Shown here: positions 1,448-62,693 of the stretch, one piece after another
Layout: each line of letters starts with the position of its first letter
Numbering within the stretch: the first letter of the stretch is position 1
Assembly: GCA_902776455.1 (NCBI GenBank)
Contig: CACYQI010000002.1
Coordinates: forward strand, 62,001 to 126,000
Length of the DNA: 64,000 nucleotides
Direction: 5' to 3'
From: an uncultured Bacteroidales bacterium
GTDB lineage: Bacteria > Bacteroidota > Bacteroidia > Bacteroidales > Bacteroidaceae
Translations under genes and position numbers: made by a program
Notes under the pieces: generated by a model
Told to the model about the DNA's origin: nothing
Databases searched by the model: none
What the model saw: the letters and a program-made list of their open reading frames with translations, nothing else

Positions 1448-4057
1448 ATGAATTGGAAAAAGTTTCTCCCTGATGTGCTGGCCGTCGCGTTCTTCGTGGC
1501 CGTCAGCGTAGTGTATTTCCTGGTGCCTATCCGCGACGGACTTGTTCTGACAGGGCACGACCACACCGGCGGCGTCGGCAGTGGCGTGGAGATGGAGCAG
1601 TACAGAGCCACCCATAATGGCGAGCGGACGCGCTGGACCAACACGCTCTTCTGCGGAATGCCCACCTATCAGATGAGTCCCAGCTACGGCAGCACCGACA
1701 CGCTCAGCTCGCTGGAGCGCGTCTATCAGCTCGGCTTGCCCGGCCTTTCGGCCTACGCCGCCTACGTCTTCATGATGCTGCTGGGCTTCTACATCATGCT
1801 CCGAGCCTTCGACTTCCGCGTCTGGATGGCAGCACTCGGCGCGGTGCTATGGGCTTTCAGCAGTTACTATTTCATCATCATTCAAGCCGGACACATCTGG
1901 AAACTGCTGACGCTCAGCTTCATCCCGCCCACCATCGGCGGCATGGTGCTGTGCTACAGAGGCCGATACATACTGGGAACAGCCGTGACGGGCTTCTTTG
2001 CAGCCATGCAGATTCACAGCAACCACGTCCAGATGAGCTACTACTTCCTGTTCGTCATCGCTTTGATGTCGCTCGCTTTCCTCATCGATGCCATCCGTCA
2101 ACGCACGTTTGCGCGGTGGCTGAAGGCAACCTGTTGCTTCGCCATTGGTGGCATCCTGGGCGTCTGCATCAACCTGAGCAACCTCTATCACACTTATGAG
2201 TACAGCAAGGAAAGCATGCGCGGCAAGAGCGAACTAACGCAGAAGACGAAAGACCCTGCTGACCAGACATCAAGCGGCCTTGAGCGAAGCTACATCACCA
2301 TGTGGTCGTATGGCAAGGGAGAGACTTGGTCGTTGCTCGTTCCTAACGTGAAAGGCGGCGCAAGCCAGCTGTTGGCCGACAACGAGACGGCCATGAAACA
2401 CGCCCGACAAGACTTCGCTCCCATCTATCGCGCCTTTACGCAATACTGGGGCGAACAGCCGGGAACGAGCGGCCCCGTGTATGTCGGAGCCTTCGTCCTC
2501 ATGCTCTTCTGGCTCGGATTCTTCGTCGTCAAGGGTCCCATGAAGTGGTGTCTCTTCGCCGCCACCGTGCTGAGCATCCTCCTCTCATGGGGTAAGAACT
2601 TCATGGGCTTCACCGACTTCTTCCTCGACTACGTGCCGATGTACGACAAGTTCCGCACCGTAGCCAGCATCCTCGTCATAGCGGAATTCACGATTCCCCT
2701 GCTTGCGATGCTCGCTCTGAAAGAGGTTGTCGGTAATCCCGACTGCCTGCGCGGCCGCGAAGACCACCTTCCGCGCGTACATTATATTACTATTAGTTTC
2801 GCCCTCACCGGCGGCATGGCCCTCCTGTTCTGGCTTATGCCCGACCTCTTCTTTGGCAATTACATCTCCTCCTCCGACCAGATGTACATGCAGCAATACG
2901 TCTCGGCAGGCTACATCCCGCAGGAGATGGCGGGCCAAATCATGGCGAACATGAGCGAGATGCGCAGGGCGATGTTCACGGCCGATGCCTTCAGGAGCTT
3001 CGTCGTAGTGGCTGTCGGCACCGTCCTGCTGCTTCTCTACCGCTTCGGCAAGTTGAAGGCCACGCCCATGACTGCAGGCCTCATCCTCCTCTGCCTCGTC
3101 GATATGTGGGGCGTAAACAAGCGTTACCTCAACGACGGCATGTTCACTCGTCCGCAAACCAACGCCCAGGCCTTCCCCGAGACAGAAGCCGACAAGATGA
3201 TTCTGCAGGACAGCGACAAGTACTACCGTGTGCTGAACCTCAGCGTAAGCACCTTCAACGACAACACCACCTCGTTCTATCACAAGAGCATCGGTGGCTA
3301 TCATCCCGCCAAGCTGCGCCGCTATCAGGAACTCGTCGAGGAGCATCTGCACGGAGAGATGGGCAACATCAATCAGGCAGTAGTGGAAACCGCCGGACAC
3401 CTCGAGGCCTGCAACGGCGACAGCCTCTTCCCGGTGCTCAACATGCTCAACACGAAGTACCTCATCGTGCCTTTGAAGGACAACGGGAAGCTGCCCGTGC
3501 AGAACCCTTGGGCACAGGGCAACGGCTGGTTCGTAGAGCGTCTTGAGTATGTTCCCGATGCCGATTCCGAGATTGCTGCCATGCATGGAGCCGACCTTCG
3601 CCACGTGGCTGTGGTCGATGAAGCCTTTGCCGACGTGCTGGGCCGCGAGCAGACCGCCTCTGACTCCCCCTTAAAGGGAGAGGATGCAGGCAAAGACTCC
3701 CTCTCTTTAAGCGAGGGCTGGGGAGGGTCTTCTCTTGGTACCGTCGAGCTTACCGGCTACGAAGCCAACCGCTTGACCTATAAGGTAAAGAGCCAGAAGG
3801 GAGGCGTCGTCGTCCTGAGCGAAATATACTATCCCGGCTGGACCTGTACCATCGACGGCGAGCCGACCAGCATAGCCCGTGCGAACTACGTGCTGCGTGC
3901 CGTCAAGGTGCCTGCCGGAGAGCACGAAATGGTGATGACCTTCGACCCGCAGACCGTGCATGTCACCGAGACCATCGCTTATGCAGCCCTCGCTCTGCTT
4001 GCCTTGCTGCTCGTCGGCTTGCTGGCCTTCAGCCTCTACAAGCGTAGGCAGAAGTAG
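1448..4057 (+). CDS. YfhO-family polytopic membrane protein
   Basis: An 869-residue inner-membrane protein with many hydrophobic segments, starting at about residues 8-27 and ending with a last helix before the terminal KRRQK. The N-terminal half has the YfhO-family look (GHDHTGG near residue 37, then RTRWTNTLFCGMPTYQ). The soluble C-terminal part has the YYPGWTCTIDG motif common in the family. YfhO proteins are thought to be membrane glycosyltransferase-like enzymes; the Gram-positive member takes part in glycosylating surface polymer, and the substrate here is unknown. Residues of about 739-761 (bases 3663-3730) are encoded by two copies of the genome's palindromic CTCCCTTTAAGGGAG element, inserted in frame in a region before the last beta domain. 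The gene stands alone between rpsO and groS. Confidence 0.8.
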   Translation: MNWKKFLPDVLAVAFFVAVSVVYFLVPIRDGLVLTGHDHTGGVGSGVEMEQYRATHNGERTRWTNTLFCGMPTYQMSPSYGSTDTLSSLERVYQLGLPGLSAYAAYVFMMLLGFYIMLRAFDFRVWMAALGAVLWAFSSYYFIIIQAGHIWKLLTLSFIPPTIGGMVLCYRGRYILGTAVTGFFAAMQIHSNHVQMSYYFLFVIALMSLAFLIDAIRQRTFARWLKATCCFAIGGILGVCINLSNLYHTYEYSKESMRGKSELTQKTKDPADQTSSGLERSYITMWSYGKGETWSLLVPNVKGGASQLLADNETAMKHARQDFAPIYRAFTQYWGEQPGTSGPVYVGAFVLMLFWLGFFVVKGPMKWCLFAATVLSILLSWGKNFMGFTDFFLDYVPMYDKFRTVASILVIAEFTIPLLAMLALKEVVGNPDCLRGREDHLPRVHYITISFALTGGMALLFWLMPDLFFGNYISSSDQMYMQQYVSAGYIPQEMAGQIMANMSEMRRAMFTADAFRSFVVVAVGTVLLLLYRFGKLKATPMTAGLILLCLVDMWGVNKRYLNDGMFTRPQTNAQAFPETEADKMILQDSDKYYRVLNLSVSTFNDNTTSFYHKSIGGYHPAKLRRYQELVEEHLHGEMGNINQAVVETAGHLEACNGDSLFPVLNMLNTKYLIVPLKDNGKLPVQNPWAQGNGWFVERLEYVPDADSEIAAMHGADLRHVAVVDEAFADVLGREQTASDSPLKGEDAGKDSLSLSEGWGGSSLGTVELTGYEANRLTYKVKSQKGGVVVLSEIYYPGWTCTIDGEPTSIARANYVLRAVKVPAGEHEMVMTFDPQTVHVTETIAYAALALLALLLVGLLAFSLYKRRQK

Positions 4058-7606: not shown

Positions 7607-8968
7607 ATGCGTAAATTAATATTATCCGTTTATAATCTCAACCAGTCATTGGTGTGTCGTCTTTGGGGCGTGATAGTAATCCTTATTCTTCACTCTTCGC
7701 TCTTCACTCTTCACTCCTTTGCCCAGACGGCAGGCACCATCTCCACCTATTCCCGCTTCGGTCTCGGACTGCTTCACGACCAGTCGCAGGGTTTCAACAA
7801 GTCGATGGGCGGCGTAGGCCTTGGTGTGCGCATCGGCAACCGCATCAACACCGTCAACCCTGCTTCCTATTCCGCCATAGACTCCCTGAGCCTCATCTTC
7901 GATGTAGGCATGAGGGCATCCTTCGGCCGGATGAGGCAAGGCACGACCACCGTAGGCGTCAACAACGCATCGCTCGACTATGCTCATGTCGGCATGCGCC
8001 TTGCCAGAAGACTCGGCCTTGCCGTAGGCTACATGCCCTATACCAATATCGGCTACGAGTTCTCGACGCCCGAAAAGGTCGTCACCACCGATGCCAACAG
8101 CTCGCAGCCCATCACCAGCATCAATGTCTATAGCGGCAGCGGCGGCCTGAACCAGATTTACCTCGGCTTGGGATGGCGAGCCTATCGCGGCCTCTCCGTC
8201 GGCGCTAACGTCAGCTTCCTCTGGGGGCGCTACGACCACCTCCTCATGCCGAACTACATGGAAGGCGGCGTGACAGGCAATTCCTACAGCAGCACCATCA
8301 AGAGCTACAACGCGTCGCTGAAGACCTACAAGTTAGACTTTGGCGCCCAGTACCCCGTCCGCCTGTCGCGTCAGGACTGGCTCAGCCTCGGTGCGACCGT
8401 CGGCATAGGCCACGAGATAGCTCAGGACGCAAGCCTCCTCATCTTTTCTACGCAAGGCGACACGGCGACGTACACCGCCTCCTCGCCATTCGACCTTCCC
8501 TTCAGCTTCGGACTCGGAGCCGCATGGCAGCACAAGAACAACCTCCTCGTCGCTGCCGACGTGCATCATGTGCGCTGGGGCGACTGTCGTATGCCCGTCG
8601 AAACGCCCAGCGGCTATGCTGCCACGAAGGGTTCCTACAAGAACATGACTAAGGCAGCCATCGGCGTACAATGGACTCCCAACCCCTTCGGCAACTTCTG
8701 GCAACGCATCCAGTATCGTGCCGGATTGAGTTATGCCACGCCCTACCTCAAAATCGACCAGCTGAACGGCCCCAGCGAGATGCGTCTCGGAGCCGGAATA
8801 GGATTGCCCATCATCAACAAGCATAACAATCGTTCCGTCGTCAACTTCGGCCTTCAGTGGCTCAGACGCTCGGCCAGCGCCGCAAGCCTGGTGAAGGAAG
8901 ACTACTTTGTCATCAACCTCGGCCTGACCTTCAACGAGCGCTGGTTCATGAAGTACAAGATAGAGTAA
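7607..8968 (+). CDS. Outer-membrane beta-barrel protein, FadL/PorV-like
   Basis: 453 residues with a signal peptide ending near HSFAQ (about residue 40). Alternating hydrophobic strands follow, and an aromatic C-terminal strand (LGLTFNERWFMKYKIE) is typical of barrels. A homologue commonly sits between coaX and lptC in Bacteroidales; its exact function is not known to me. The hydrophobic core and end of the signal peptide ([11 protein letters not shown]) are encoded by the dispersed ttcactcttcactc microrepeat at 7686-7717, so a repeat appears to serve as a secretion signal. The start ATG 7607 is 20 bp after coaX. Confidence 0.7.
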   Translation: MRKLILSVYNLNQSLVCRLWGVIVILILHSSLFTLHSFAQTAGTISTYSRFGLGLLHDQSQGFNKSMGGVGLGVRIGNRINTVNPASYSAIDSLSLIFDVGMRASFGRMRQGTTTVGVNNASLDYAHVGMRLARRLGLAVGYMPYTNIGYEFSTPEKVVTTDANSSQPITSINVYSGSGGLNQIYLGLGWRAYRGLSVGANVSFLWGRYDHLLMPNYMEGGVTGNSYSSTIKSYNASLKTYKLDFGAQYPVRLSRQDWLSLGATVGIGHEIAQDASLLIFSTQGDTATYTASSPFDLPFSFGLGAAWQHKNNLLVAADVHHVRWGDCRMPVETPSGYAATKGSYKNMTKAAIGVQWTPNPFGNFWQRIQYRAGLSYATPYLKIDQLNGPSEMRLGAGIGLPIINKHNNRSVVNFGLQWLRRSASAASLVKEDYFVINLGLTFNERWFMKYKIE

Positions 8969-9006: not shown

Positions 9007-9567
9007 ATGAATAGCAAAAGGAAACTTCCAAAGGGAGTTTGGGGCGTTCTTCTTCTCCTCTCCTCTTTTGCCTGCTCGGGCGAAGTGGAGCATCTGGCCG
9101 ACCCCATCGCACCGGAGGATTCCCTCCTGTTCATGCACTCTACGGGCGTCAACACGTTCATCAGCGACAGCGGCGTCATGCGCTATCACCTCGTGGTCGA
9201 AGAGTGGGACATCTACAACGGCGTCCCCGGCGAACAGCCCACCTGGAAGTTCATGAAGGGAATGCTCATGGAACGCCTCGACGAGAAGTTCCACGTTGAC
9301 CTCTTCGTGCAGTCGGACACCGCCTACCTCCACAAGCAGGAGCTGTGGGAACTGCGTGGCAGAGTGGTAGTGCGCAATGTGAACGGCGACGTGTTCCGTA
9401 CCGAGGAACTCTTCTGGGACCTCAATGCGCACGAGATGTGGAATAATCAATACATCCACATTACTACGCCAGAGCGCGAACTCGAAGGCACCGAGTTCCA
9501 CAGCAACGAGCAGATGACGCGCTACTACGTGCTTAACTCCGAAGGTTCCTTCCCCGCTAAAGAATAA
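9007..9567 (+). CDS. lptC: LptC-like lipopolysaccharide export lipoprotein
   Basis: 186 residues. The N-terminus carries a lipoprotein signal with the lipobox-like LLSSFACSG (Cys at about residue 23). The rest resembles the LptC beta-jellyroll family, with the recurring pattern LRGRVVVRNVNGDVFRTEEL and LEGTEFHSNEQMTRY. LptC passes lipopolysaccharide from the LptBFG transporter to the periplasmic bridge. I use ATG 9007; the open frame continues upstream but only through the tail of the previous gene. It lies 38 bp after the barrel protein and 2 bp before gldE. Confidence 0.75.
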   Translation: MNSKRKLPKGVWGVLLLLSSFACSGEVEHLADPIAPEDSLLFMHSTGVNTFISDSGVMRYHLVVEEWDIYNGVPGEQPTWKFMKGMLMERLDEKFHVDLFVQSDTAYLHKQELWELRGRVVVRNVNGDVFRTEELFWDLNAHEMWNNQYIHITTPERELEGTEFHSNEQMTRYYVLNSEGSFPAKE

Positions 9568-9569
9568 CG

Positions 9570-10877
9570 ATGAACTCCGAACATATCATAGCCATCATAG
9601 CCATCCTCCTCCTCTCCGGGTTCTTCTCTGGAATGGAGATTGCTTTCGTCTCGAGCAGCAAGTTGCGTTTCGAGATGGACAGGGAAGAGCAGGGCTTTTC
9701 AGCACGTCTCATCGACACCTTCTACCGCCACCCCAACAGCTTCATCTCCACTCTTCTCGTTGGCAACAACATCGCGCTGGTCGTCTATGGCATTCTGATG
9801 GCAGAGTTGGTGAATGAGCTTATTCTTATTCCGCTGAACATCCATCAGCCCTACGGCAATTGTCCCAACGAGGCTCTCTGCCTGCTGTCGCAGACCATCC
9901 TTGCCACGCTCATCGTCCTCGTTACGGGCGAATTTCTGCCCAAAACGCTTTTCCGCATCGACCCGAACCGCATGATGCGCATCTTTGCCCTGCCCGCCTA
10001 CATCTTCTACATCGTGTTGTGGCCCGTCAGCAAGTTTACCAGTTCGCTCGGAAAGCTGTTGCTCTGGATGGTGGGTGCCAAGGTGAAGAAGCAGACGCCC
10101 GAGAAGACCTTCACCCGCGAAGACTTGGACTACCTCATTCAAAGCAATATAGCCGGAGCAACCGACGAAGAAGACATCGAGGACGAAGTGAAGATTTTCC
10201 AGAACGCCCTCGACTTCGGTTCGGTCAAAGTGCGCGACTGTATCGTGCCCCGCACAGAGATTGTTGCCGTCTCGACCGAGACGTCGCTGCAAGAGCTGCG
10301 CATGCAGTTCGTCGAGAGCGGCCATAGCAAGATTCTCGTATATAAGGAGGACATTGACGACATCGTGGGCTACATCCATACCGTCGAAATGTTCCGCCTG
10401 GGCGAAGGCGAGAACTGGACGGCGCATGTCCGTGAAGTATCCATCGTTCCTGAGACGATGAATGCTCAGAAACTGCTTGGCATCTTCATCAGCCAGAAGC
10501 GTTCGCTGGCCGTCATCGTTGATGAGTTTGGCGGCACAAGCGGCATCGTCACGATGGAAGACCTCGTCGAGGAGATCTTCGGCGAGATAGAAGACGAGCA
10601 CGACAGCAATAATTATGTGGCTCGGCAGACAGCTCCGGGCGAGTATCAGCTATCCGGCAGGCTTGAGATAGCGCAGGCCAACGAACTTCTTGACCTCGAT
10701 TTGCCCGAAAGCGACGAATACTTGACCGTGGGCGGCCTCATTCTCCATGAGTTCCAGAACTTTCCCAAACTCAACGAACCGGTTCGCTTCGGACACTGGG
10801 AATTTAAGGTTACGAAGAAGACGACAACTAAGATAGAACTCGTCCAACTACGTCTTCTCGACTCAGATATTCATTAA
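9570..10877 (+). CDS. gldE: CNNM/CorC-type transporter-associated protein (GldE-like)
   Basis: 435 residues. An N-terminal DUF21 membrane domain with about four hydrophobic segments (residues 1-180) contains SGFFSGMEIAFVS. Two CBS domains follow (about 205-330; VRDCIVPRTEIVAVS and FISQKRSLAVIVDEFGG), then a C-terminal CorC_HlyC domain. Relatives move Mg or Co ions, or in gliding Bacteroidetes associate with GldD. A role in gliding here is not implied, since gldE-like genes are widespread in non-gliding Bacteroidales. It is the last gene of the coaX run. Confidence 0.85.
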   Translation: MNSEHIIAIIAILLLSGFFSGMEIAFVSSSKLRFEMDREEQGFSARLIDTFYRHPNSFISTLLVGNNIALVVYGILMAELVNELILIPLNIHQPYGNCPNEALCLLSQTILATLIVLVTGEFLPKTLFRIDPNRMMRIFALPAYIFYIVLWPVSKFTSSLGKLLLWMVGAKVKKQTPEKTFTREDLDYLIQSNIAGATDEEDIEDEVKIFQNALDFGSVKVRDCIVPRTEIVAVSTETSLQELRMQFVESGHSKILVYKEDIDDIVGYIHTVEMFRLGEGENWTAHVREVSIVPETMNAQKLLGIFISQKRSLAVIVDEFGGTSGIVTMEDLVEEIFGEIEDEHDSNNYVARQTAPGEYQLSGRLEIAQANELLDLDLPESDEYLTVGGLILHEFQNFPKLNEPVRFGHWEFKVTKKTTTKIELVQLRLLDSDIH

Positions 10878-12187: not shown

Positions 12188-12301
12188 CCCCTCTCCCCAA
12201 TCCTCCCCCAAAGGGGAGGGAGTTAATTAGTAATTAGATTATAAGAATAGATATGAACCAGAATGAAAAGCACTCCCCTTTGGGGGAGAAGGAGGGGGGC
12301 C
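12188..12301. repeat. Pair of opposed palindromic elements around the argG start
   Basis: CTCCCCAATCCTCCCCCAAAGGGGAG-like sequence at about 12193-12220 is reverse-complementary to sequence at about 12270-12298. The start codon of argG (12253) lies in the loop between them. Confidence 0.75.
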
Positions 12302-13494
12302 GCAAGGTTGTTGTCGCCTTCAGTGGCGGGCTTGATACCAGCTACACAGTGATGTATCTGGCAAAGGAGAAAGGTTACGAAGTTTATGCCGCTTGTGCCA
12401 ATACGGGAGGCTTCAGTGCGGAGCAGCTCAAGACGAACGAAGAGAATGCCTACAGGCTGGGTGCCAAGGCGTATGTCACGCTCGATGTGACGCAGGAATA
12501 CTACGAGAAGTCGCTGAAGTACATGGTCTTCGGAAATGTGCTTCGCAATAATTGCTATCCCATCTCAGTAAGCTCGGAACGCATTTTCCAAGCGTTGGCC
12601 ATTGCGCGATACGCCAAGGAGATTGGCGCGACAGCCATTGCCCACGGCTCCACCGGTGCCGGCAACGACCAGATACGCTTCGACATGACCTTCCTCGTGA
12701 TGTGTCCGGGCGTGAAAATCATTACCTTGACGCGCGACGGGAACCTTTCGCGGCAGGAGGAAGTGGATTACCTCAACAAGAACGGCTACTTTGCCGACTT
12801 CACGAAGCTGAAGTACAGCTACAACGTCGGCCTTTGGGGTACAAGCATCTGCGGTGGTGAAATCCTCGATTCGAAGCAGGGACTGCCCGAAAGCGCGTAC
12901 CTGAAGCACCCCTCGGAAGAAGGTCCTGAGGTGCTGAAGATAGGCTTCGAGAAGGGCGAAATCTGTTCCGTCAACGGAGAGAAGTTCGACGATAAGATCA
13001 AGGCCATACAGAAGGTCGAGGAGATAGGCGCCCGCTACGCCATCGGCCGCGACTGCCATGTGGGCGACACCATCATCGGCATCAAGGGTCGCGTGGGCTT
13101 CGAGGCTGCTGCTCCCATGCTCATCATCGGCGCTCACCGCTATCTGGAGAAGTTCACCCTGTCCAAGTGGCAGCAGTACTGGAAGGAGCAAGTGGCCAAC
13201 TGGTACGGCATGTTCCTCCACGAGAGCCAGTACCTGGAGCCTGTCATGCCGGACATCGAGGCGATGCTCCTGAGCAGCCAACGCAACGTGACGGGCGAGG
13301 TGACGCTCGAACTGCGTCCCTATTGCTTCCAGACCCTCGGCGTAGATAGTCCTAACGACCTCGTCAAGAACAAGCTCGGCGAGTACGGCGAGACGGCAAA
13401 GGCTTGGACTTCAGAGGATGCGAAGGGCTTCATCAAGGTGACTTCCACGGCTCTCCGTGCCTACTATCTGGCGCATCCGGACGAAGAGAGATAA
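12253..13494 (+). CDS. argG: Argininosuccinate synthase
   Basis: 413 residues. The enzyme joins citrulline and aspartate with ATP to give argininosuccinate. The P-loop-like AFSGGLDTSY begins at about residue 22 and AHGSTGAGNDQIRFD at about 129. The first 20 or so residues include KHSPLGEKEGG, which is encoded by the dispersed palindromic element; the catalytic fold begins only at KVVVAFSGG, so the element has provided or extended the N-terminus. No later in-frame ATG precedes the P-loop, so ATG 12253 is retained. The spacer from the acyltransferase is 68 bp. Confidence 0.95.
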   Translation: MNQNEKHSPLGEKEGGRKVVVAFSGGLDTSYTVMYLAKEKGYEVYAACANTGGFSAEQLKTNEENAYRLGAKAYVTLDVTQEYYEKSLKYMVFGNVLRNNCYPISVSSERIFQALAIARYAKEIGATAIAHGSTGAGNDQIRFDMTFLVMCPGVKIITLTRDGNLSRQEEVDYLNKNGYFADFTKLKYSYNVGLWGTSICGGEILDSKQGLPESAYLKHPSEEGPEVLKIGFEKGEICSVNGEKFDDKIKAIQKVEEIGARYAIGRDCHVGDTIIGIKGRVGFEAAAPMLIIGAHRYLEKFTLSKWQQYWKEQVANWYGMFLHESQYLEPVMPDIEAMLLSSQRNVTGEVTLELRPYCFQTLGVDSPNDLVKNKLGEYGETAKAWTSEDAKGFIKVTSTALRAYYLAHPDEER

Positions 13495-13518: not shown

Positions 13519-13713
13519 ATGGAAAAGAGATATTACCTTTCTACCACCGACAAGAAAATAGGTGGTGTCTGCGGAGGATTGGCAGAGTATTTCGAGGTTG
13601 ACCCTCTGCTCGTCCGTCTGCTGTTCGTGTTCTTGTTCTTTAGTTTCGGGGGCGGTTTAGTTCTTTACTTGCTGTTGTGGATTCTCGCTCCTAAAAAGCC
13701 GATGGAATGGTGA
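13519..13713 (+). CDS. Small PspC-domain membrane protein
   Basis: 64 residues forming a single PspC domain: [18 protein letters not shown], a hydrophobic helix (about 32-56), then [10 protein letters not shown]. PspC proteins sense envelope stress in some bacteria; the function of such stand-alone short forms is unknown. The stop overlaps the argC start by 7 bp, so the two are translationally coupled. Confidence 0.85.
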
Positions 13714-14705
13714 AGGTTGGCATACTTGGTGCAGCCGGCTATACGGGCGGCGAACTGATAAGAGTGCTTTTGGGGCATCCCGAAGCGGAGATTGTTTTTG
13801 CCAACAGCGAGTCGAATGCCGGCAACCACGTGAGCGAAGTTCACGAGGGGTTGATAGGCGAGACAGACCTCTGCTTCACCTCGGAAATGCCTTTCGACAA
13901 GGTGGATGTCGTCTTCTTCTGCTTCGGCCACGGCAAAAGCGAGCAGTTCCTCCGGGAGCACGAGATACCGTCGCACGTCAAGATAATCGACTTGGCTCAG
14001 GACTTCAGAGTGAAACCGACAAACAAAGAAGATTCTTCACTCTTCACTCTTCACTCTTCGTTTGTCTATGGACTGCCCGAGACACACCGTGAACTCATTC
14101 ACGGGGCTTGCTGTGTAGCAAACCCCGGTTGCTTTGCCACTTGCATACAGCTCGCCATGCTGCCTGCCCTGCAGTCTGGCATCATCTTCGGCGACATCCA
14201 CGTGAACGGCATCACGGGCAGCACGGGAGCCGGTCAGAAGCCTGGTGCTACAACGCATTTCTCTTGGCGCAACGACAACATCTCTGTCTATAAGACCTTC
14301 ACGCATCAGCACCTTTTGGAGATAAACCAGACGGTTCAGGAGCTGTGCCCCGGCTACGAAGGCCGCGTGCTCTTCATCCCGCAGCGAGGCTGCTTCACGC
14401 GTGGCATCTTCGTGACGGCCTACGCCAAGTGCGACTTGCCCCTTGCGGAAGTGCAGCGCATCTATGCCGACTACTACAGGGACGCTGCCTTCACGCACTT
14501 CGTCACGAAGTGTCCCGACATGAAGCAAGTGGTGAACACCAACAAGGCTCTGGTCTATGTGGAGAAGTATGAAGACCAGCTCCTGATGATTTCCTGCATC
14601 GACAACCTCCTGAAGGGAGCCGTCGGACAGGCCGTGCAGAACATGAACCTCATGTTCGGCCTCGACGAGAAACTTGGGCTGAACCTGAAAGCCAGTGCCT
14701 TCTGA
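13707..14705 (+). CDS. argC: N-acyl-gamma-glutamyl-phosphate reductase
   Basis: 332 residues. It reduces N-acylglutamyl phosphate to the semialdehyde with [17 protein letters not shown] binds nucleotide near the N-terminus, the catalytic Cys lies in VANPGCFAT, and the substrate loop [13 protein letters not shown] follows. Between FRVKP and FVYGLPE the protein carries about a dozen extra residues ([10 protein letters not shown]) encoded by the ttcactcttcactc microrepeat at 14034-14060. This loop falls between the NAD fold and the catalytic Cys, and the frame is kept. It probably belongs to the argR-argG transcript. Confidence 0.95.
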
Positions 14706-15216: not shown

Positions 15217-15226
15217 TATCTGCTGA

Positions 15227-16240
15227 GCCGAGGAGCCTATGGAGAAATCCTCCATGAACTCGCTTCCTTCGCTGAGATAAAAGTTCTACGGAGCCGAGGA
15301 GCCTATGGCGAAGGCCTCCATGAACTCGCTTCCTTCGCTGAGATAAAAGTTCTACGGAGCCGAGGAGCCTATGGAGAGGATCTCCATGTACTCCATGTAC
15401 TCCGTAGAAAATAAACTCAGTGGCGCCTTGAGATAAAAGTTCTACGGAGCCGAGGAGCCTATGGAGAGGATCTCCATGTACTCCATGTACTCCGTAGAAA
15501 ATAAACTCAGTGGCGCCGAGGAGCCAATGGAGAGGATCTCCATGTCCTCCATGTACTCCGTAGAAAATAAACTCAGTGGCGCCGAGGAGCCAATGGAGAA
15601 AGTCTCCATGTGCTCCATGTACTCCGTAGAATAAAAACTCTCCGGAGCCGAGGAGCCAATGGAGAAAATCTCCATGTCCTCCATATACTCCGTAGAAAAT
15701 AAACTCTGTGGCGCCGAGGAGCCAATGGAGAAATCCTCCATGAACTCTCTTCCTTCGTTGAGATAAAAGTTCTACGGAGCCAAGGAGCCTATGGAGAAGG
15801 CCTCCATGAACTCTCCTCCTTCGTTGAGATAAAAGTTCTACGGAGCCGAGGAGCCAATGGAGAGGATCTCCATGTACTCCATGTACTCCGTAGAAAATAA
15901 ACTCAGTGGCGCCAAGGAGCCTATGGAGAAAGTCTCCATGTCCTCCATATCCTCCGTAGAAAATAAACTCTGTGGCGCCGAGGAGCCAATTGAGAGGGTC
16001 TCCATGTCCTCCATGTACTCCGTAGAAAATAAACTCTGTGGCGCCGAGGAGCCAATGGAGAAAATCTCCATTTCCTCCATATTCTCCGTAGAAAATAAAC
16101 TCAGTGGCGCCAAGGAGCCAATGGAGAAAGTCTCCATGTCCTCCATGTACTCCGTAGAAAATAAACTCAGTGGCGCCGAGGAGCCAATGGAGAGGAATCC
16201 TCTATTTGCTCCATATCCTTCGTAGAAATCAGCCCGATTG
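15227..16240. repeat. 66-bp tandem array, fifteen units plus one 24-bp partial
   Basis: The word GCC(G/A)AGGAGCC starts at 15227, 15293, 15359, then after a 24-bp partial unit at 15449, 15515, 15581, 15647, 15713, 15779, 15845, 15911, 15977, 16043, 16109 and 16175, always 66 bp apart. Each unit holds the dyads ATGGAGA..TCTCCAT and CTCCGTAGA. Two unit subtypes are interspersed: one with CTTCCTTCGCTGAGATAAAAG and one with CTCCGTAGAAAATAAACTC. Because 66 is divisible by three, both strands keep long open frames; I do not regard these as genes. Confidence 0.92.
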
Positions 16241-16259
16241 TAACGAGGGGCAATTTGAC

Positions 16260-16295
16260 AAAAAGAAAGCAGACTATCGCGTCTGCTTTCTTTTT
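16260..16295. terminator. Bidirectional Rho-independent terminator at the end of the 66-bp array
   Basis: A perfect 15-bp stem (AAAAAGAAAGCAGAC with its complement) around a six-base loop, with A- and T-rich flanks on both sides. Confidence 0.85.
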
Positions 16296-16383
16296 GCTGT
16301 TTTTGCACACTATGGAAAGTGGAGGAAAAAGGCACTCGGCACGGCGGTTTTGGCCTTGCTGCACGGAGAGTTTCCCGATGCTT

Positions 16384-16440
16384 CACGTTGTGTTGGCTGA
16401 CTCTCCACGTTGTGTTGGCCAACTCTCCACGTTGTGTTGG
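16384..16440. repeat. 22-bp tandem array, three units
   Basis: CACGTTGTGTTGG starts at 16384, 16406 and 16428. A related perfect hairpin, ATGTGGAGTT-GCC-AACTCCACAT, lies nearby at 16518-16540. Confidence 0.88.
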
Positions 16441-44730: not shown

Positions 44731-44742
44731 TTTTCCGATGGG

Positions 44743-47129: not shown

Positions 47130-47179
47130 TTTATTCCCCCTTAGGGGGGGTAGGGGATTCCTATTCCCCCTCAAGGGGG

Positions 47180-48310: not shown

Positions 48311-48361
48311 TTAATCATTTACCATTTACCATTTAATGGTTTGCCAATTGCCTTTTGTTTG

Positions 48362-48369
48362 CAAAGGTA
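48362..48369 (-). promoter_or_regulatory. -7 box of holB on the minus strand
   Basis: CAAAGGTA reads TACCTTTG on the minus strand, 51 bp before the holB start. Confidence 0.6.
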
Positions 48370-48413
48370 CAAAATTATTCTTAATTCATCATTCTTAATT
48401 CTTAATTTCTTTG

Positions 48414-48421
48414 TATCTTTG
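48414..48421 (+). promoter_or_regulatory. -7 box of ugd
   Basis: TATCTTTG lies 45 bp before ATG 48467. Together with the opposed box at 48362 it makes a compact divergent promoter region. Confidence 0.65.
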
Positions 48422-48466
48422 CACCGAAATGGTAATTGATTAAATGATTAAATGCTAAATGATACG

Positions 48467-53245: not shown

Positions 53246-53873
53246 ATGTAGATGAATTTTTAACAAAATCTACTGTTTTCTTTAACCTCTGCGATTTAAT
53301 AATTTAACCATTTACAGGGCGGTTAGTAACTTTGACTTTCACTCTTCACTCTTCACTTTTCACTTCGCCGTAGGCGACATTCATACCCCACCCCTAACCC
53401 CTCCCCTTAGAGGGGAGGGGAACCGCGGGTGAAGACATCCGTATCTTTCGGGTCTTTCGAAGTTAGAAGTTATCCGTTCAATCCGTTTAATCCGTGGTCG
53501 TATATCAATTCATAATTCTTAATTCATAGTTATTAGTTTTCTGTGATTTGACTTCCCCCTGTTCTCACTTTTTCACAAAACTTTCTTCGAAATTTTCAAA
53601 ACAGCCTACATGCCTACATAAAATGGCTTGAAACCACGATGAATAAATGGAAACACACAAACGTCAGCCTACATAAAGCCTACATAAAGCCTACATAAGC
53701 CTACATAACACAATTCAAAATTAATAAATTCAAAATGCCTTTCAGTCGCATTTTCTATGTAGGATAATGTAGGATATATGTAGGCTTTATGTAGGCTTGA
53801 AAATGCAACTTTCCCTTTATTCATGCGGGTTACGGAATGATTTATGTAGGCATGTAGGCTTTGGCGCAACTTT

Positions 53874-54060
53874 CCACGTTAAGTTAGTCAACTTTCCACG
53901 TTAAGTTAGTCAACTTTCCACGTTAAGTCAGTCAACTTTCCACGTTAAAAACGCTCCACGTTGTGTAGGCTCACGCTCCACGTTGTGTAGGCTCACGCTC
54001 CACGTTGTGTAGGCTTACGCTCCACGTTGTGTAGGCTTACGCTCCACGTTGCGTTAACCT
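53874..54060. repeat. 22-bp tandem array, nine units in two blocks
   Basis: CCACGTT cores lie at 53874, 53896, 53918 and 53940 (spacer AAGTTAGTCAACTTT), then after a 16-bp step at 53956, 53978, 54000, 54022 and 54044 (spacer GTGTAGGCTCACGCT). Within each block the step is exactly 22 bp, although the spacer sequences differ. Confidence 0.92.
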
Positions 54061-54405
54061 ACCCCTCCCAAGGCCAATGGGAACCCATGGGGCCTATGAG
54101 GCCTACTGATACAAGGTAATTGCCGAATAGTTGCTTGTAAATCATCAAATTGCAAATTGCTTCATCTCATACGGAAAGCACGGAAAAGCTTTTGTTTTGT
54201 TGATGCTCTTGTACCGGGGGTTCTTCCCTTCGGTCAGGCGCAGGCGGAGTACACCCCCGTCTGTGGTCTTTCGCACCTCCGGTGCTTTTCCGCGGACACT
54301 AAAATAACGTGAATTCGACGAAAAATAATTAATGGGCAATTACATGGCAATTATATGTTAAATATTCAACTTTAGCATGTAGGCTGGCATACCGTCTGTA
54401 ATATG

Positions 54406-56468: not shown

Positions 56469-57737
56469 ATGAAGACATACATACTATATATAATAGGGCT
56501 TATCGGCCTGATGACCTGTCTGGCCCTCAGCATCCACGCGCACCTGCTTTGGCCGTCCGTCGCGCTAGGCGTGGCGTTGCTGTGGCTTTGTGTCTCGCTC
56601 TATGGACGCATCGGCCGCCTGCGCTACGCCTATCGCGAGACGGAGAAAGAGAACGAGAAGTTGCATGCACGACTGGTTGAGACAGAGCGACAGTTGCAGT
56701 ACCTGCGGCAACTCACCGAGAACGTCGATACCGCACTCTTCGTCTGCTCCACCGACGGACGAATCGACTGGATGAACCATGCAGGAGAAAAGACCCTCTA
56801 CGGCCTCTCCCCTAACCCCTCCCCCGTGAGGGAGGGGAACTTCGCGGGGGAGGGGTTAGGGGAGAGGCCGGGGAATCTGCCGCCACATATCCTCTCGGCC
56901 ATCGCCGAACACAAGGAGGTGGTGGATGGCTGTGCCCTCTCCACCGTGCTGTTGCGCATCGACGGCCATCGACGGCTTATCGTAGCGCTGAAGGACGTGT
57001 CGATGCTGATGCAGCGGCAGGAGATGGAAGCTTGGCAACAGCTAATCCGCGTGCTGACCCACGAGATTATGAACTCCCTGACGCCCATCATCTCCATCAG
57101 CGAGACCATGAGCAACCCCCTCCCGACCTCCCCGAGGGGAGGAGAGTCTTCCGCCTTTGAGGTCATCAATCGTCGCTGCCACGCCCTGCTCGACTTCGTG
57201 GAGAGCTACCGACAGCTGACGCGCATCAAGGCACCCGAGCGAACAACCTTCCCCGTCGCTGACCTCTTCGCCCACATAAAGGCACTCTACAGCCTCTCCC
57301 CCGGCCCCTCCCCCGTGGGGGAGGGGAGCAGGCAGCCTGCAAAGGTAACCTTTTCCCCCTCCCCCACGGGGGAGGGGCAAGGGGAGAGGCTGTCCCTCTT
57401 TGCCGACCGTTCCCAGATAGAGCAGGTCCTCATCAACCTCATCAAGAATGCCTACGAGAGCGGCGCCACGGAGGTGGAGCTTACGGCCTCCAAGACCCTC
57501 TCTAACTCCCTCCCTTTAAGGGAAGGCTGTGGAGGGTCTGTTATCTGTGTCCGCGACAACGGCTGCGGCATGTCGCCCGACGTCCTCGAACAGGCCTTCA
57601 TTCCTTTCTTCACCACCAAACCCAGCGGCACCGGCATCGGCCTCGCCCTCTGCCGACAGATTATCTTGAAGCACGGCGGCAGCATCACCATCGACAGCGA
57701 GGAAGGCCGCGGCACCACCTTCATCATCAAGCTGTGA
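56469..57737 (+). CDS. Sensor histidine kinase interrupted by five in-frame repeat elements
   Basis: 422 residues. Two N-terminal membrane helices (about 4-24 and 27-46) with almost no periplasmic loop, a coiled coil, and a PAS-like segment (VDTALFVCSTDGRIDWMNHAG). The phospho-acceptor His is in LTHEIMNSLTP, the N box is NLIKNAYESGA, and DNGCGMSPD and GTGIGLAL form the ATP lid. Five segments are encoded by the palindromic element: LSPNPSPVREGN..GEGLGERP, NPLPTSPRGGESS, SLSPGPSPVGEGS, FSPSPTGEGQGERL and SLPLREGCGGS. All keep the frame and fall between recognised motifs. The kinase should phosphorylate the regulator at 54708. Confidence 0.9.
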   Translation: MKTYILYIIGLIGLMTCLALSIHAHLLWPSVALGVALLWLCVSLYGRIGRLRYAYRETEKENEKLHARLVETERQLQYLRQLTENVDTALFVCSTDGRIDWMNHAGEKTLYGLSPNPSPVREGNFAGEGLGERPGNLPPHILSAIAEHKEVVDGCALSTVLLRIDGHRRLIVALKDVSMLMQRQEMEAWQQLIRVLTHEIMNSLTPIISISETMSNPLPTSPRGGESSAFEVINRRCHALLDFVESYRQLTRIKAPERTTFPVADLFAHIKALYSLSPGPSPVGEGSRQPAKVTFSPSPTGEGQGERLSLFADRSQIEQVLINLIKNAYESGATEVELTASKTLSNSLPLREGCGGSVICVRDNGCGMSPDVLEQAFIPFFTTKPSGTGIGLALCRQIILKHGGSITIDSEEGRGTTFIIKL

Positions 57738-57882: not shown

Positions 57883-60264
57883 ATGAAACAAGCATTCCGA
57901 CTCATCTCCCGCATGAAGGGCTACACCGCCCTCTCCCTGCTGGGCCTCGTCATCTCGCTCAGCGGCACCGTCATCATCAGCCGCTACCTCTATCAGGAAT
58001 GGACTATCGACCACTGGATGCCCGACCTGGACAGGACTTACATCTTGTGCCAACGCCACGTCAATGGCATGTTTGGGAATGAGCCAACGCCTGGTTTGGC
58101 TTGGAATCCCAACAAAACAGAGGGCTTCGTATCGCCTACTTTGGGACAGAGCGACGTGGAAGCCTTCTCGGATGTCCATCTGCTGCAGAACGGTTACTAC
58201 ATCACGTTGGAGAACGAGGAAACTATCACCGCACCCGTCATCAGCGTTGACAGCAGCTTCGTTGATGTCTTTCCGCTGCAAGCTTTGGAGGGCACGCTGG
58301 TGTTGCGTACAGAAGGGCAGGCCATCGTGAGCGATGACTTCGCCCGTCGCCACTTCCCGGGCGAGAGTGCTGTGGGGAAGACCATGAAGATGGGCGACGA
58401 GAACATCTTGCATACCATCGTGGGCGTGTTCCGTCGGCCATCGAGCAAGAGCACCGTCCACTTCGATGTTGCTAACTATGCACGCAGGGACTGGTGGGTT
58501 GGCAATGCCCTTAACTTTACGATGATAAAGCTGGCAGAGGGCGCAAGCATGGAGGCATATAACGAGCGGCAGCCCAGGAATTCATGGGGAGGCCAGAATC
58601 CCGAGTTCCATTTCTTGCTTGTGCCCTATACGGGAAACCTGAGAAGGCTGATTGAGAGTTATGGACAGGAATTCCGAACCATTCCTTCGCTGAGTCCGTG
58701 CAGCAGCCCGCAATACCTGTGGATGCTCTTCGGCGTAGCAGTTCTGCTCTTCCTCGTGGGCATCTTCAACTTCCTGAACTTGTATGCCGTGATGCGCAGC
58801 CACCGTCGCCACGAGCTGGAGGTGCGCCGCATCTTCGGAGCTTCGCGTTGGGACATCTTCTGCCAGCTCTATGCCGAGACGTTCCTGCTCGCTTTGCTCA
58901 CGATGATAGGCGTATGGACCGTCGTGGAACTCATGGAGCCGCTGCTTGCTACCTATTATAATATAGAGGTCTTGCCGCAGCGGACGTTCGATGTGGGGCT
59001 GACCGTAGGGATTGTTTTCGGATTGCCACTGATAGTAGGTTTCATTCCACGGAGGCTCCCCACCTTCGGGGAGGGGCTGGGGGTAGGCATCCAATTCTTC
59101 ATCTCCCTGACCCTCATCACCGTCAGCATCTACATGATGCGTCAGTTGCACCTGATGATGGACGGCGACCCAGGCTACAGGACAGAGGGCATACTCCACA
59201 TCGTCCCCAAGCCCAGGGAAGACTACAACCGCATCAGGATGGATGACAACGGGAATATATATAACGTCGATAACAGTAGGGGAGAAAAGGCTATGGCTGT
59301 CTTGAAGAAGCTGAGGGAATGCCCCTACATCCAAAGCATCATCAAGGACCCCGACATGATAGGTGCCGGTGAACTGATGGAAATAGAGGGGCAGAAACTG
59401 GCGTTCAAGGAAATGTGCCATAATACGATGGAGATGTTCGGGCTGGAATTGCTGGAAGGAAGAGAATTAAACGATACCTTGGACAACTACTCATACAACT
59501 GCCTGCTCAATGAAACAGCAGTTCGACGCTTGGGACTGAAGGACTGGCGAAGCGAGACGGTGCAGCTACCGGAACGATGGTGGACGTCAGCCAATGAGGA
59601 TTGCTCAGAGAATCCGCCCTACAACGTGGTAGGCATCGTGAAGGACTTCCATCCCGGCCGCCTCTCAGAGCCACAGCCTCCCATCATCTTCTTCCCAACC
59701 CTGAACTGGAACAGCCACTTCCTGCCCGATGACTTGCTACTGAGCATTGCTCCGGGCTGCGAGGAGGATGCAATAAAGTACCTGCGCCAGATGAATAAGG
59801 AAGTGTGGGGCACGGAAGACTTGGAATACAACTGGCTTTCCGACCAGAAGGATGAACTCTACCGCGAGGACCGCCGCACGGCACGCATCTTCTTCACCTT
59901 CTCGCTGCTGGCCATTGCCGTGACGTGCCTCGGGGTGCTCGGTCTGATGATGTTCGACGTGCGCCGCCGCTACCGAGAGATAGCGCTCCGCAAGGTCAAC
60001 GGCGCCACGTTCCGCGACATCGCCCTGCTCCTCTCGCGCCGCTACCTTATTATATTGGCTGTAGCTGCCGCTGTCAGCATCCCTGTCTCACTCATCGGCC
60101 TGCACCAGCTGATAACGCGCTACTACACCATCCACGCCACAATCGCCTGGTGGATTCCACTCGTGAGCATCGCCATCGTGCTGCTCCTCTGCGCCCTCAC
60201 GCTCTGGCAGCAAGTATGGAAGGCAACACGCATCAAACCCTATCAAGTATTGAAGGAGAACTAA
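57883..60264 (+). CDS. FtsX/MacB-type ABC permease, first copy
   Basis: 793 residues. An N-terminal membrane helix (LSLLGLVISLSGTVIISRYL), a large periplasmic domain, three helices at about 280-420, a second periplasmic domain and a C-terminal FtsX module (residues about 670-785; RRYREIALRKVNGATFRDI, LVSIAIVLLLCALTLWQQ). Such permeases do not move substrate through the membrane themselves but transmit force to partners that expel lipoproteins, peptides or drugs. The stretch RRLPTFGEGLGVGIQFF contains the palindromic element (59048-59085). Its near-twin follows at 60324. Confidence 0.9.
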   Translation: MKQAFRLISRMKGYTALSLLGLVISLSGTVIISRYLYQEWTIDHWMPDLDRTYILCQRHVNGMFGNEPTPGLAWNPNKTEGFVSPTLGQSDVEAFSDVHLLQNGYYITLENEETITAPVISVDSSFVDVFPLQALEGTLVLRTEGQAIVSDDFARRHFPGESAVGKTMKMGDENILHTIVGVFRRPSSKSTVHFDVANYARRDWWVGNALNFTMIKLAEGASMEAYNERQPRNSWGGQNPEFHFLLVPYTGNLRRLIESYGQEFRTIPSLSPCSSPQYLWMLFGVAVLLFLVGIFNFLNLYAVMRSHRRHELEVRRIFGASRWDIFCQLYAETFLLALLTMIGVWTVVELMEPLLATYYNIEVLPQRTFDVGLTVGIVFGLPLIVGFIPRRLPTFGEGLGVGIQFFISLTLITVSIYMMRQLHLMMDGDPGYRTEGILHIVPKPREDYNRIRMDDNGNIYNVDNSRGEKAMAVLKKLRECPYIQSIIKDPDMIGAGELMEIEGQKLAFKEMCHNTMEMFGLELLEGRELNDTLDNYSYNCLLNETAVRRLGLKDWRSETVQLPERWWTSANEDCSENPPYNVVGIVKDFHPGRLSEPQPPIIFFPTLNWNSHFLPDDLLLSIAPGCEEDAIKYLRQMNKEVWGTEDLEYNWLSDQKDELYREDRRTARIFFTFSLLAIAVTCLGVLGLMMFDVRRRYREIALRKVNGATFRDIALLLSRRYLIILAVAAAVSIPVSLIGLHQLITRYYTIHATIAWWIPLVSIAIVLLLCALTLWQQVWKATRIKPYQVLKEN

Positions 60265-60323
60265 AGCCTCACCCCCCGACCCCTTTCCGAGGAGAGGGGA
60301 GTCAACTTGTCAACTAAAACAAC

Positions 60324-62693
60324 ATGAAACAAGCATTCCGACTTATTTCCCGCATGAAGGGCTACACAGCCCTCTCCCTGCTGGGCCTTATCATCAGTCT
60401 TAGCGGCACGGTCATCATCAGCCGCTACCTCTATCAGGAATGGACCATCGACCATTGGATGCCTGACCACGACAGGACTTACATCTGTTGCACCCAGTTC
60501 CATAACTCCGACGGATGGATTCCGATGGAAACCGACGATCCTAATCACGAAGAGCATTTTGTTTCGCCCGTGCTGAACCAGAGTGACGTGGAGTGCTGGA
60601 CGAACGTGCAACTGCGCACGATGTTCCCCGTCAGACCCGAGCAGGGCGAGATGTTCTATCCCGCGGCTATTAGCGTGGATTCCTCGTTCACGCAGCTTTA
60701 TCCGCTCGAAGCGGTGGAGGGAACCTTAGTGCTGCGGGCGAAGGGCCAATGCATTCTGAGCATAGAACTTGCCAAACGGCTGTTCCCCGGCGAGAGCGCC
60801 GTGGGCAAGACCATTTCGGTGGAGGACGACGAGGTGAATACCGTGATGGGCGTCTTCCGTCAACCCGCCACTAAGTCCAGCCTTCGCTTTGATATCGCCA
60901 ATTTCTGCGACAAGGACAAATTAGGGATGAACTACCGTGGCATAGGCCTCATCCGCTTGTGCAAAGGGGCCGACATGCAGGCCTACAACGACAGACAGCC
61001 CGAGCAGCGGCTGTCTATGTTCTCCGGACCAGTCCGCTATGGACTACAACCTTATACACAAGGGCTGCAAAAGAGTGGCGTCAACTATGGGACACAATTC
61101 GGTTGCTTTGTACCCGTTGCTTCTTCCAGCCATCTGTGGATGCTCCTCTTTGTGGCCATCCTCTTGCTGTTCGTCGGTTTGTTCAACTTCGTGAATCTTT
61201 TCGCCGTCATGCGCAGACATCGTCGGCACGAGCTGGAGGTGCGCCGCCTGTTCGGTGCATCGCGATGGGACATCTTCTGCCAGCTTTATGCCGAGACCTT
61301 CCTGCTCGCCGTTCTCACCATGATTGGAGTTTGGACGGTTGTGGAACTGGCCGAGCCGCTGCTGGCTACCTATTATAATATAGAGGTGATGGGGCAATGG
61401 CGGTTTGATGTCGCTCTGACATTGTTTATTGTCTTCGGCCTGCCACTCGTGTCAATCCTAATCCCAAGGAAACTCCCTTCCCTCCGGGAGGGGCTAGGGG
61501 TAGGCCTCCAGTTCTTCATCTCCCTTGCCCTGTTGAACGTCAGCCTCTACTTCATGCGACAACTGCACGTGATGATGACTACCGACCCGGGCTTCCGGAC
61601 GAAAGGGCTGCTTAGCGCTTGTATCTATCCACCCAGCAACCGCAGCAGGTTTACGGAAGAAGAATGGGAGACCATGATAGCGAATCTCGACAAGCAAACC
61701 GAAGTAGTGAAGCAACGCCTGCAAGCGTGCCCCTACATTAAGGGCATAACCGTTGACTATGGATTCATCAACGGCAACTTCACCATGAACCTCGCCGATG
61801 GTCGCACCGTCGATATCATGTACATCGGGGGCATAGAGGCGCAGATGTACGGCCTGCAACTGGTGGAGGGCGTGTTGCCCGGCGACAGCCTCTCGATGGA
61901 AGACTATACCTGTGTTGCCACCGAGTCCGCCATCCGTGCATTGGGCATCAAAGACCGAAAGACCGACCTCGTGCAGTTAGAACATCGTTTTTGGTACAAC
62001 AGCGAAAAGGACTGTAGCGGCAACCCTCCTTACCGCATCATCGGCGTCGTTCGCGACTTCAACCCAGGTCGGCAGTCGGAGCCAATACAGCCGATGCTGC
62101 TTATGTTTGAGGGCTGGAGGAAGGGATATGACATCTTCAACGCTCATGGGATGCAGGGAAGAAACTACCTATTCGACGTGGCTGAGGGTCACGAGGACGA
62201 CATCATCCATGAGCTGAAAGCGCTGGAGAAGGAACTCTATGGCACCACCGACCTGAAGTATCACTGGAAAGAAGACCAGCGCAAAGCGCTCTACAAAGAG
62301 GACCAGCAGACAGCTCGCATCTTCTTCACCTTCTCGCTTTTGGCGATTGCCGTGACGTGCCTCGGCGTTCTTGGCCTGATGATGTTCGACGTGCGCCGCC
62401 GCTACCGCGAGATTGCCCTCCGCAAGGTCAATGGCGCCACGTTCCTCGACATCGCCCTGCTGCTCTCGCGCCGCTACCTCATCGTCTTCGGCATTGCTGC
62501 CGTCGCCTCCCTGCCCGTCAGCCTGCTTGCCATCCATCGCCTCATGGCAAGCTATACCATCCGCACCTCGTTCGCCTGGTGGATTCCCCTCCTGAGCATC
62601 GCCATCGTGCTGCTGCTCTGCGCCCTCACGCTCTGGCAGCAAGTGTGGAAGGCAACAAGAATAAAACCATATGAAGTGTTGAAAGAACAATAG
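60324..62693 (+). CDS. FtsX/MacB-type ABC permease, second copy
   Basis: 789 residues, a tandem paralogue of the preceding gene. The first 48 residues and the C-terminal FtsX module are nearly identical; the periplasmic domains have diverged. It carries the same repeat element at the same place (RKLPSLREGLGVGLQFF, 61468-61504). The two probably form a heterodimer energised by the ATPase at 62804. A 59-bp spacer containing another element copy separates it from the first permease. Confidence 0.9.
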   Translation: MKQAFRLISRMKGYTALSLLGLIISLSGTVIISRYLYQEWTIDHWMPDHDRTYICCTQFHNSDGWIPMETDDPNHEEHFVSPVLNQSDVECWTNVQLRTMFPVRPEQGEMFYPAAISVDSSFTQLYPLEAVEGTLVLRAKGQCILSIELAKRLFPGESAVGKTISVEDDEVNTVMGVFRQPATKSSLRFDIANFCDKDKLGMNYRGIGLIRLCKGADMQAYNDRQPEQRLSMFSGPVRYGLQPYTQGLQKSGVNYGTQFGCFVPVASSSHLWMLLFVAILLLFVGLFNFVNLFAVMRRHRRHELEVRRLFGASRWDIFCQLYAETFLLAVLTMIGVWTVVELAEPLLATYYNIEVMGQWRFDVALTLFIVFGLPLVSILIPRKLPSLREGLGVGLQFFISLALLNVSLYFMRQLHVMMTTDPGFRTKGLLSACIYPPSNRSRFTEEEWETMIANLDKQTEVVKQRLQACPYIKGITVDYGFINGNFTMNLADGRTVDIMYIGGIEAQMYGLQLVEGVLPGDSLSMEDYTCVATESAIRALGIKDRKTDLVQLEHRFWYNSEKDCSGNPPYRIIGVVRDFNPGRQSEPIQPMLLMFEGWRKGYDIFNAHGMQGRNYLFDVAEGHEDDIIHELKALEKELYGTTDLKYHWKEDQRKALYKEDQQTARIFFTFSLLAIAVTCLGVLGLMMFDVRRRYREIALRKVNGATFLDIALLLSRRYLIVFGIAAVASLPVSLLAIHRLMASYTIRTSFAWWIPLLSIAIVLLLCALTLWQQVWKATRIKPYEVLKEQ

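Follow-up and report, generated by a model that had tools for sequence, protein, structure and literature searches.

The 64,000-bp stretch analyzed here (the window) belongs to the draft genome of an uncultured Bacteroidales bacterium and carries C-rich palindromes with a CTCCCC...GGGGAG core, both between genes and in frame within them. These palindromes are dispersed, have defined ends and paired, co-varying arms, are missing from some of the corresponding sites in congeners, and leave frames open through conserved enzymes. They were interpreted as non-autonomous mobile palindromes with the architecture of REPINs, the doublets formed by repetitive extragenic palindromic (REP) sequences, that have multiplied in this Bacteroidales lineage and insert in and between genes; the probability of this reading is put at roughly three in four.

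The window corresponds to positions 62001-126000 of contig C2 of a 3.39-Mb genome (G000; 94 contigs, 87% complete draft); other G numbers denote comparison genomes, and L numbers denote loci. The lineage was placed in Bacteroidales on the basis of the nearest named relatives of argG among the matches listed, which were mostly rumen or gut metagenome-assembled genomes (MAGs) with Prevotellaceae, Bacteroidaceae, and other Bacteroidales names (best segment identity, 96%). Exact CTCCCC-N2..16-GGGGAG cores were counted across the whole genome, which yielded 455 matches as compared to 32 for a reversed-pattern control. The same core occurred 0-153 times per genome in 36 congeners and at most 56 times in 24 genomes from other families of the order, and in a draw of 296 genomes from the phylum that included G000, every other genome had 61 cores or fewer. 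G000 is an outlier in core count even within its own genus.

A stricter palindrome definition, which misses the argG copy, was applied to a sample consisting of the window and 20 further stretches of G000 (463,873 bp, 283 genes, 79% coding), the choice of stretches being partly biased and the genes being called with a home-made dicodon score. A total of 108 palindromes was obtained, with 31 in called genes, 76 outside, and one at an edge, whereas order-2 shuffles, three each for coding and noncoding sequence, gave 1-2 in either part. Strict copies are approximately ninefold depleted per base in coding sequence, yet remain far above the shuffles there. At least one copy was present in 22 of the 283 genes, six of which had two or more, and 10 of the 107 genes carried a copy in the eight stretches (160 kb) that were picked blind to matches. 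The palindromes listed in the initial annotation are present at their places and far above chance. Its figure of more than 20 intergenic copies depends on the definition used, since nine strict intergenic palindromes were counted in the window and more with relaxed arms.

The best-defined family is a REPIN-like doublet in which an AGACCC tail and a hairpin are followed by the same unit inverted. The pattern AGACCC-N41..71-GGGTCT produced 24 matches as compared to one for the control, and after removal of the match at C2:240803 (L188), which has no C-rich hairpins, an intact set of 23 copies was retained. The AGACCC ends of this set are fixed by pattern selection, and the 68-83 nt length of its members was obtained with a pattern that admits 53-83 nt only, which longer and shorter copies escape; lengths of 47-104 nt were obtained in a looser scan extended to relatives. 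Each intact copy contains two inverted units, and among the 46 half-units the tail was 12-14 nt long in 35 and the hairpin 8-10 bp in 29. The CCCCTAACCCCTCCCC... types are other subfamilies with the same plan. In eight distinct TTAA-type hairpins, 98.6% of the cells pair and 10 cells have changed on both sides; each of these two values exceeds all 500 shuffles, a control that is lenient for related sequences, and slid versions of the arms gave lower pairing and covariation scores. None of the 23 intact copies is flanked by a duplication of at least 3 nt, and three have one of 2 nt.

Fourteen of the intact copies lie inside stop-to-stop open reading frames (ORFs) of at least 250 aa, which is not clearly different from the 76% observed for 2000 random stretches (P ~0.08); a frame filter alone would leave approximately 51%. 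Coding copies are more frequent, relative to noncoding ones, in the intact set (14/9) than among the strict palindromes (31/76; Fisher P 0.007), but the two classes were drawn from different patterns. Host proteins of the intact copies, named by eye from their translations, include PyrG, QueA, YidC, a UvrD-type helicase, RibD, an aminopeptidase, and TonB-dependent-type proteins. Adaptation of coding copies to open frames was considered and rejected: two of the six frames are open in 11 of the 14 coding copies and two to six in the noncoding ones, which gives no indication of special openness in coding copies. The length classes of the coding intact copies are not uniform (8 of 14 are 2 mod 3).

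Orthologous sites were compared within the genus (Table 1). Congeners without the element have fewer residues at both proA sites and in yfhO and argG, in agreement with the in-frame insertions originally proposed for these genes. The yfhO loop is filled in five of seven species (G000, G005, G020, G013, and, by peptide only, G036) and empty in G035 and G027. The N-terminal argG insert is common to G000 and G020 and does not occur in G005, G035, G027, G036, or G013. In a goat rumen MAG (L080, JAFTAJ010000024.1), argG has an N-terminal MENNKQITSSPLLKEGTGVVS at the same place, apparently from an independent palindrome. The insert at proA site 1 is found in G000 alone among the aligned congeners; in the distant homologues G050 and G043 the loop is longer and includes an LKGA of similar appearance, and the best Protein Data Bank (PDB) chain also has residues there. 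The LKGA likeness was read as coincidence because the other aligned rows (the genus and G042) have a short PSDP-like stretch. At proA site 2, G000, G020, G027, and G013 hold a palindrome, G035 holds a heptamer array, and in the remaining aligned species a short native sequence is present; at least two events have occurred in this loop, since the left junction of G020 differs from that of G027 and G000. The loop of argC is occupied by a 7-bp microrepeat in G000, as annotated initially, and by a palindrome in G035. Orthologous loops of argC, proA, and yfhO hold different inserts in different species. Both proA and argC of G035 are split over two frames at these loops. These breaks may show failed insertion, unless they are assembly errors, and the general statement that every coding copy keeps the frame does not hold there.

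The histidine kinase (56469-57737) contains five hairpins, the number first counted, although these occupy four sites and extra residues are evident only at sites a, c, and d. Site b was rejected as an insertion after a recount showed no clear extra length. Site c spans 45 residues in G000, 164 in G013, and 20-23 in G003, G018, G025, and G033, and site d spans 27 residues in G000 as compared to 13-14 in G018, G025, and G033; in G003, other proline- or glycine-rich stretches occur at some of the sites. In the G013 kinase (L132), site c has undergone tandem in-frame amplification to eight SRQPxKVT units, as compared to one in G000, which amounts to a variable-number protein repeat ahead of the HATPase domain. 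The two palindromes reported in ricT are present, at the N-terminus and not between conserved motifs; three of five orthologues begin at MDK just ahead of the conserved part, and G020 and G013 have related extensions. The copy in the 2368-aa protein lies in the linker ahead of the C-terminal YDLSGR motif, as judged by comparison with other such linkers of G000, not with orthologues. Palindrome or heptamer peptides are also present in several proteins of L144 (1247-3622 and 7142-11326) and L154 (6599-8095 and 16228-16782), again in a linker that precedes a C-terminal YDLSGR-like motif. The palindrome-like stretches of the two FtsX permeases, which had also been taken for insertions, were rejected, their lengths being equal to those of motif-free paralogues. 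Homologues of the same length without the element, which would speak against insertion, were therefore found for both permeases and for kinase site b, and none were found among congeners at proA, yfhO, argG, or kinase sites a, c, and d.

Outside the window, the sampled copies reside in 18 host genes, 17 of which had a Pfam match at E<=0.001 (one of these below its cut-off). The hosts named in this way include PriA, RsmF, TsaD, a DbpA-type helicase, aspartate-semialdehyde dehydrogenase (Asd), leucyl-tRNA synthetase (LeuRS), thymidylate synthase (ThyA), and a PPDK-domain protein; in the Cons_hypoth95 methyltransferase the motif is probably native and not an insert. Seven enzymes (ThyA, TsaD, Asd, LeuRS, PyrG, QueA, and ProA at site 2) were compared with PDB sequences, and in all seven the element residues were unmatched in the best chain. 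The unmatched residues number 8 in ThyA, 25 in TsaD, approximately 22 in Asd, 6 in LeuRS, and approximately 46 and 24 in CTP synthase (PyrG), and the QueA inserts fall, along with other residues, within two long stretches that do not align. Open frames are kept across several inserts in PyrG (two) and QueA (at least three, by eye). The genes thyA, leuS, tsaD, and pyrG are normally essential.

A mobile element that is recognized via single-stranded hairpins is consistent with the discrete ends, the pairing of the arms, the inverted doublets, and the lack of duplication. In the proposed mechanism, a unit would combine a C-rich tail, which is AGACCC in the best-defined family, with a hairpin of approximately 8-9 bp, would be repeated in inverted orientation, and would be moved in trans by a hairpin-recognizing single-strand mechanism of the HUH/Y1 type or similar. 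Genic copies would survive where the frame is kept and the site is a tolerant loop, linker, or end, and the host protein would gain an extra peptide such as TLSNSPLKGE...SPLRGGLEGS. To judge from the alignments, the insertion sites are probably structurally tolerant loops, and the insert residues are presumably present in the mature proteins. Survival of copies would then reflect a selective filter against broken frames and damaged folds, not benefit. Several observations weigh against mobile palindromes of this kind. The genome is a draft, 87% complete and in 94 contigs. The junction at proA site 1 swaps native bases (27 nt for 9) and is no clean insertion, and the hairpin is shorter than 8 bp in 17 of the 46 half-units. 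The arm covariation test covers 22 of the 46 half-units (TTAA type) only, and in two of its five measures the observed values were reached by shuffles, 43 of 500 for pairs changed on both sides and 477 of 500 for further pair types. No mobilizing enzyme was identified, the Y1 genes that were read being located between other palindromes.

One alternative is that a REP-associated tyrosine transposase (RAYT/TnpA-REP) moves the palindromes, as in canonical REPINs, whose plan of tail and hairpin, inverted doublets, and no target duplication is matched here. A PF01797 profile search over 61 genomes gave matches in G000 and in the element-bearing G013, G027, and G035, and the flanks of eleven genes were read by eye. 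However, the RAYT-like genes of G000 (C22), G013, G027, G035, G022, and G032 have other palindromes within 350 nt, such as GGCGGATTTGTAATCCGCC in G000, and no C-rich doublet was seen; the same was true within 400 nt on each side of five longer Y1-like genes from four genomes. Six element-rich drafts, namely G016 (96 cores, 92% complete), G005, G029, G001, G015, and G020, had no PF01797 match at E<=0.001, and a conserved GTAG tag was not found in the intact copies. Because the genes adjoin other palindromes or none and six element-rich drafts lack a match, RAYT is not supported as the resident mover and was considered an unlikely one. Replication errors, with template switching at hairpins and slippage spreading the repeats without a dedicated enzyme, are a serious rival because 7-bp arrays are abundant and one insert, the compound of palindrome and heptamers at proA site 2, joins both classes. 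Period-7 arrays of at least three units number 181 in the 464-kb sample as compared to zero in one order-2 shuffle, the G013 kinase displays tandem amplification in frame, and native bases are replaced at the proA junction. On the other hand, the ends are discrete and one doublet recurs at many unlinked loci and in several species, which looks like dispersal of a unit, and pairing is retained while the arm sequence drifts, so that this origin was likewise judged improbable, though well worth keeping in view.

The coding copies might instead be spurious, arising from pseudogenes, mis-called frames, or draft errors, in keeping with the split proA and argC of G035, the draft state of all genomes, and the home-made score used for gene calling. 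This is very unlikely, given that PyrG and QueA remain open across several inserts, that G000 shares inserts with other genomes (with G020 in argG and with G013 at kinase site d), and that thyA, tsaD, leuS, and pyrG, which are generally essential, are among the hosts. Slightly less credible still is that the segments are transcribed and then removed or skipped by RNA excision or translational bypass to leave normal proteins; strong hairpins are located at the insert sites, but the reading frame is preserved through the inserts and stops are avoided, neither of which removal would need. In extension of the mobile palindrome reading, it was considered possible, though somewhat doubtful, that a mobilizer of their own, distinct from RAYT, spreads a recurrent translated peptide across the proteome of this bacterium, which is not known to be intracellular. 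Approximately 8-9% of sampled genes would be affected, some single essential enzymes holding several copies, and genic intact copies would be about as frequent as random insertion and a frame filter allow. Transposition and subsequent in-frame amplification, of the kind seen in the G013 kinase, would then diversify proteins.

Separate from the question of the mover, the RAYT-like gene on C22 of G000 (L155, ~9500-10100) encodes a 183-aa Y1 transposase-like protein between GGCGGATTTGTAATCCGCC-type palindromes, and a similar palindrome is located at 29888-30009 of the window. This protein has NHLH and YIHQNP in common with the motifs listed for Bacteroidetes subclass 2.6 (PMC6006769). The longer Y1-like proteins (352-513 aa; L152, L162, L163, L164, and L165) have an extra C-terminal region, and in some of them short peptide repeats that differ between genomes occupy a single internal place.

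The G000 element behaves like Rickettsia palindromic elements (RPEs), is built like REPINs, and fails the tag or motif tests of both. The comparison with RPEs made in the initial annotation is apt, in particular for RPE-4/6/7, which are described as dispersed palindromes found in frame in conserved genes and at the same sites of orthologues, where a related species sometimes carries a different element (PMC3767692). Recurrence at the same orthologous site was observed here at proA site 2, yfhO, and the argC loop, and a queA-type gene (tRNA ribosyltransferase-isomerase) is also given as an RPE host (PMC3767692). For R. conorii, 44 integrations are reported, nearly half of the elements being in ORFs (PMC10969869). 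Lengths quoted for RPEs are 105-146 or 100-150 bp, with table rows of 84-142 (PMC2229807, PMC3767692), as compared to 47-104 nt in this study. Unlike RPEs, the G000 elements are C-rich doublets ending AGACCC...GGGTCT, and the ATGAC motif described as frequent in RPE-4/6/7 (PMC3767692) occurs in none of the 23 intact copies; likeness in sequence was judged by quoted motifs, namely this one of RPE-4/6/7 and a CGTC end, whose letters occur in one of the 23.

REPINs share the tail and hairpin, inverted doublets, variable spacer, and compensatory changes (PMC3116915), but the letters GTAG occur in only four of the 23 intact copies, no cognate RAYT was found flanking a C-rich doublet among the six RAYT-like and five longer Y1-like genes read, and many copies lie in genes, whereas the analysis described in PMC3116915 addressed extragenic space. 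CGTC REPs and intragenic REPs are likewise described as short palindromes, many of them dimers and some in genes, with no dedicated transposase known (PMC3733652); CGTC is present in one of the 23 intact copies. Terminal inverted repeat-type miniature inverted-repeat transposable elements (MITEs) differ by their target-site duplication, absent here at 3 nt or more. The G000 elements were set apart from RPEs, REPINs, and CGTC REPs because of these tag and motif counts and the lack of a RAYT neighborhood. No description of in-frame palindromes in Bacteroidales was found among the results listed from the openly licensed PMC literature searched, in line with the initial remark that no described counterpart was known. 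CGTC repeats are on record from Bacteroidetes among other phyla and REPs from inside genes of several other species (PMC3733652), so that the kind itself is known.

Table 1. Positions of the palindromes and associated repeats in the window.
Feature	Position	Strand	Remarks
yfhO, REPIN-like doublet, read as QTASDSPLKGEDAGKDSLSLSEGWGGS	3651-3730	+	gene 1448-4057
C-rich palindrome upstream of argG	12188-12222		intergenic; similar one in G020
argG, palindrome from codon 7, read as HSPLGEKEGG	12271-12299	+	gene 12253-13494
argC, 7-bp microrepeat array	14031-14059	+	gene 13707-14705
proA site 1, palindrome	19732-19758	+	gene 19579-20868; 27 nt vs 9 nt in G020
proA site 2, partial doublet AGACCC..., then (TCAATGG)n heptamer arrays	20076-20191	+	gene 19579-20868
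2368-aa repeat protein, palindrome near C-terminus, read as LTPDPSPRRGEE	22069-22106	-	gene 21973-29079
Intergenic palindromes including CCCCTCCCTTTTGAGGGGAGGGGTTAGGGGTGGGG	30136-30207
Intergenic palindrome	35398-35439
Intergenic cluster of C-rich hairpins	35922-36085
PSP1/RicT N-terminus, two palindromes	47030-47082	-	gene 45921-47174
Intergenic palindrome CCCCACCCCTAACCCCTCCCC...	53386-53421
Kinase site a, inverted doublet, read as LSPNPSPVREGNFAGEGLGERPG	56801-56870	+	38 residues vs 18 in G025, G033
Kinase site b, single palindrome, read as NPLPTSPRGGE	57116-57144	+	29 residues; 29 in G033, 26 in G025, G013
Kinase site c, inverted doublet	57292-57391	+	38-nt arms, 95% complementary
Kinase site d, 47-nt AGACCC...GGGTCT element	57493-57539	+	68 nt at same place in G013
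First FtsX permease, palindrome-like stretch	59056-59083	+	no length change vs paralogues
Intergenic palindrome between permease genes	60267-60300
Second FtsX permease, palindrome-like stretch	61475-61500	+	no length change vs paralogues
Intergenic palindrome after second permease	62712-62746

Other repeats were noted nearby. Period-7 arrays are located at 14031-14059, 20118-20191, 7687-7707, and 36947-36967 of the window and at sample loci L141-L156, and those in genes read as peptides such as NGQWSMVN, SLFTLHS, and GQGARSKE. Such arrays could act as phase switches, and one accompanies the proA frame shift in G035. Cyanobacterial heptanucleotide short tandem repeats (STRRs) are 7-bp tandem units scattered in the genome; the G000 heptamers, 30 of whose 181 arrays are in called genes, resemble them by description. 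Tandem units of approximately 66-68 bp of related sequence (TCTACGGAGCC...) occupy 15219-16321 and 35437-35898, a 44-bp tandem array built on AACGGATTTAACGGATT occupies 45194-45699 (with a different version in G020), and 22-bp tandem repeats with a CCACGTT core occupy 16334-16460, 44584-44776, and 53867-54077. A stretch of approximately 65 bp (48360-48424), which precedes the gene at 48452, has similar copies in six of six relatives searched, among the matches listed.

The best-known in-frame selfish palindromes are those of Rickettsia, an obligate intracellular alphaproteobacterium, and of a few other bacteria; nothing seen here ties the present lineage to intracellular life. Gene predictions and structure models from drafts such as these can contain mobile peptides and call for caution. 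A single genus offers empty, filled, and amplified sites side by side, so that tests become feasible of whether selfish DNA that is translated is useful or merely tolerated, how often protein loops accept new peptides, and which enzyme moves REPIN-like doublets that lack the known tags.

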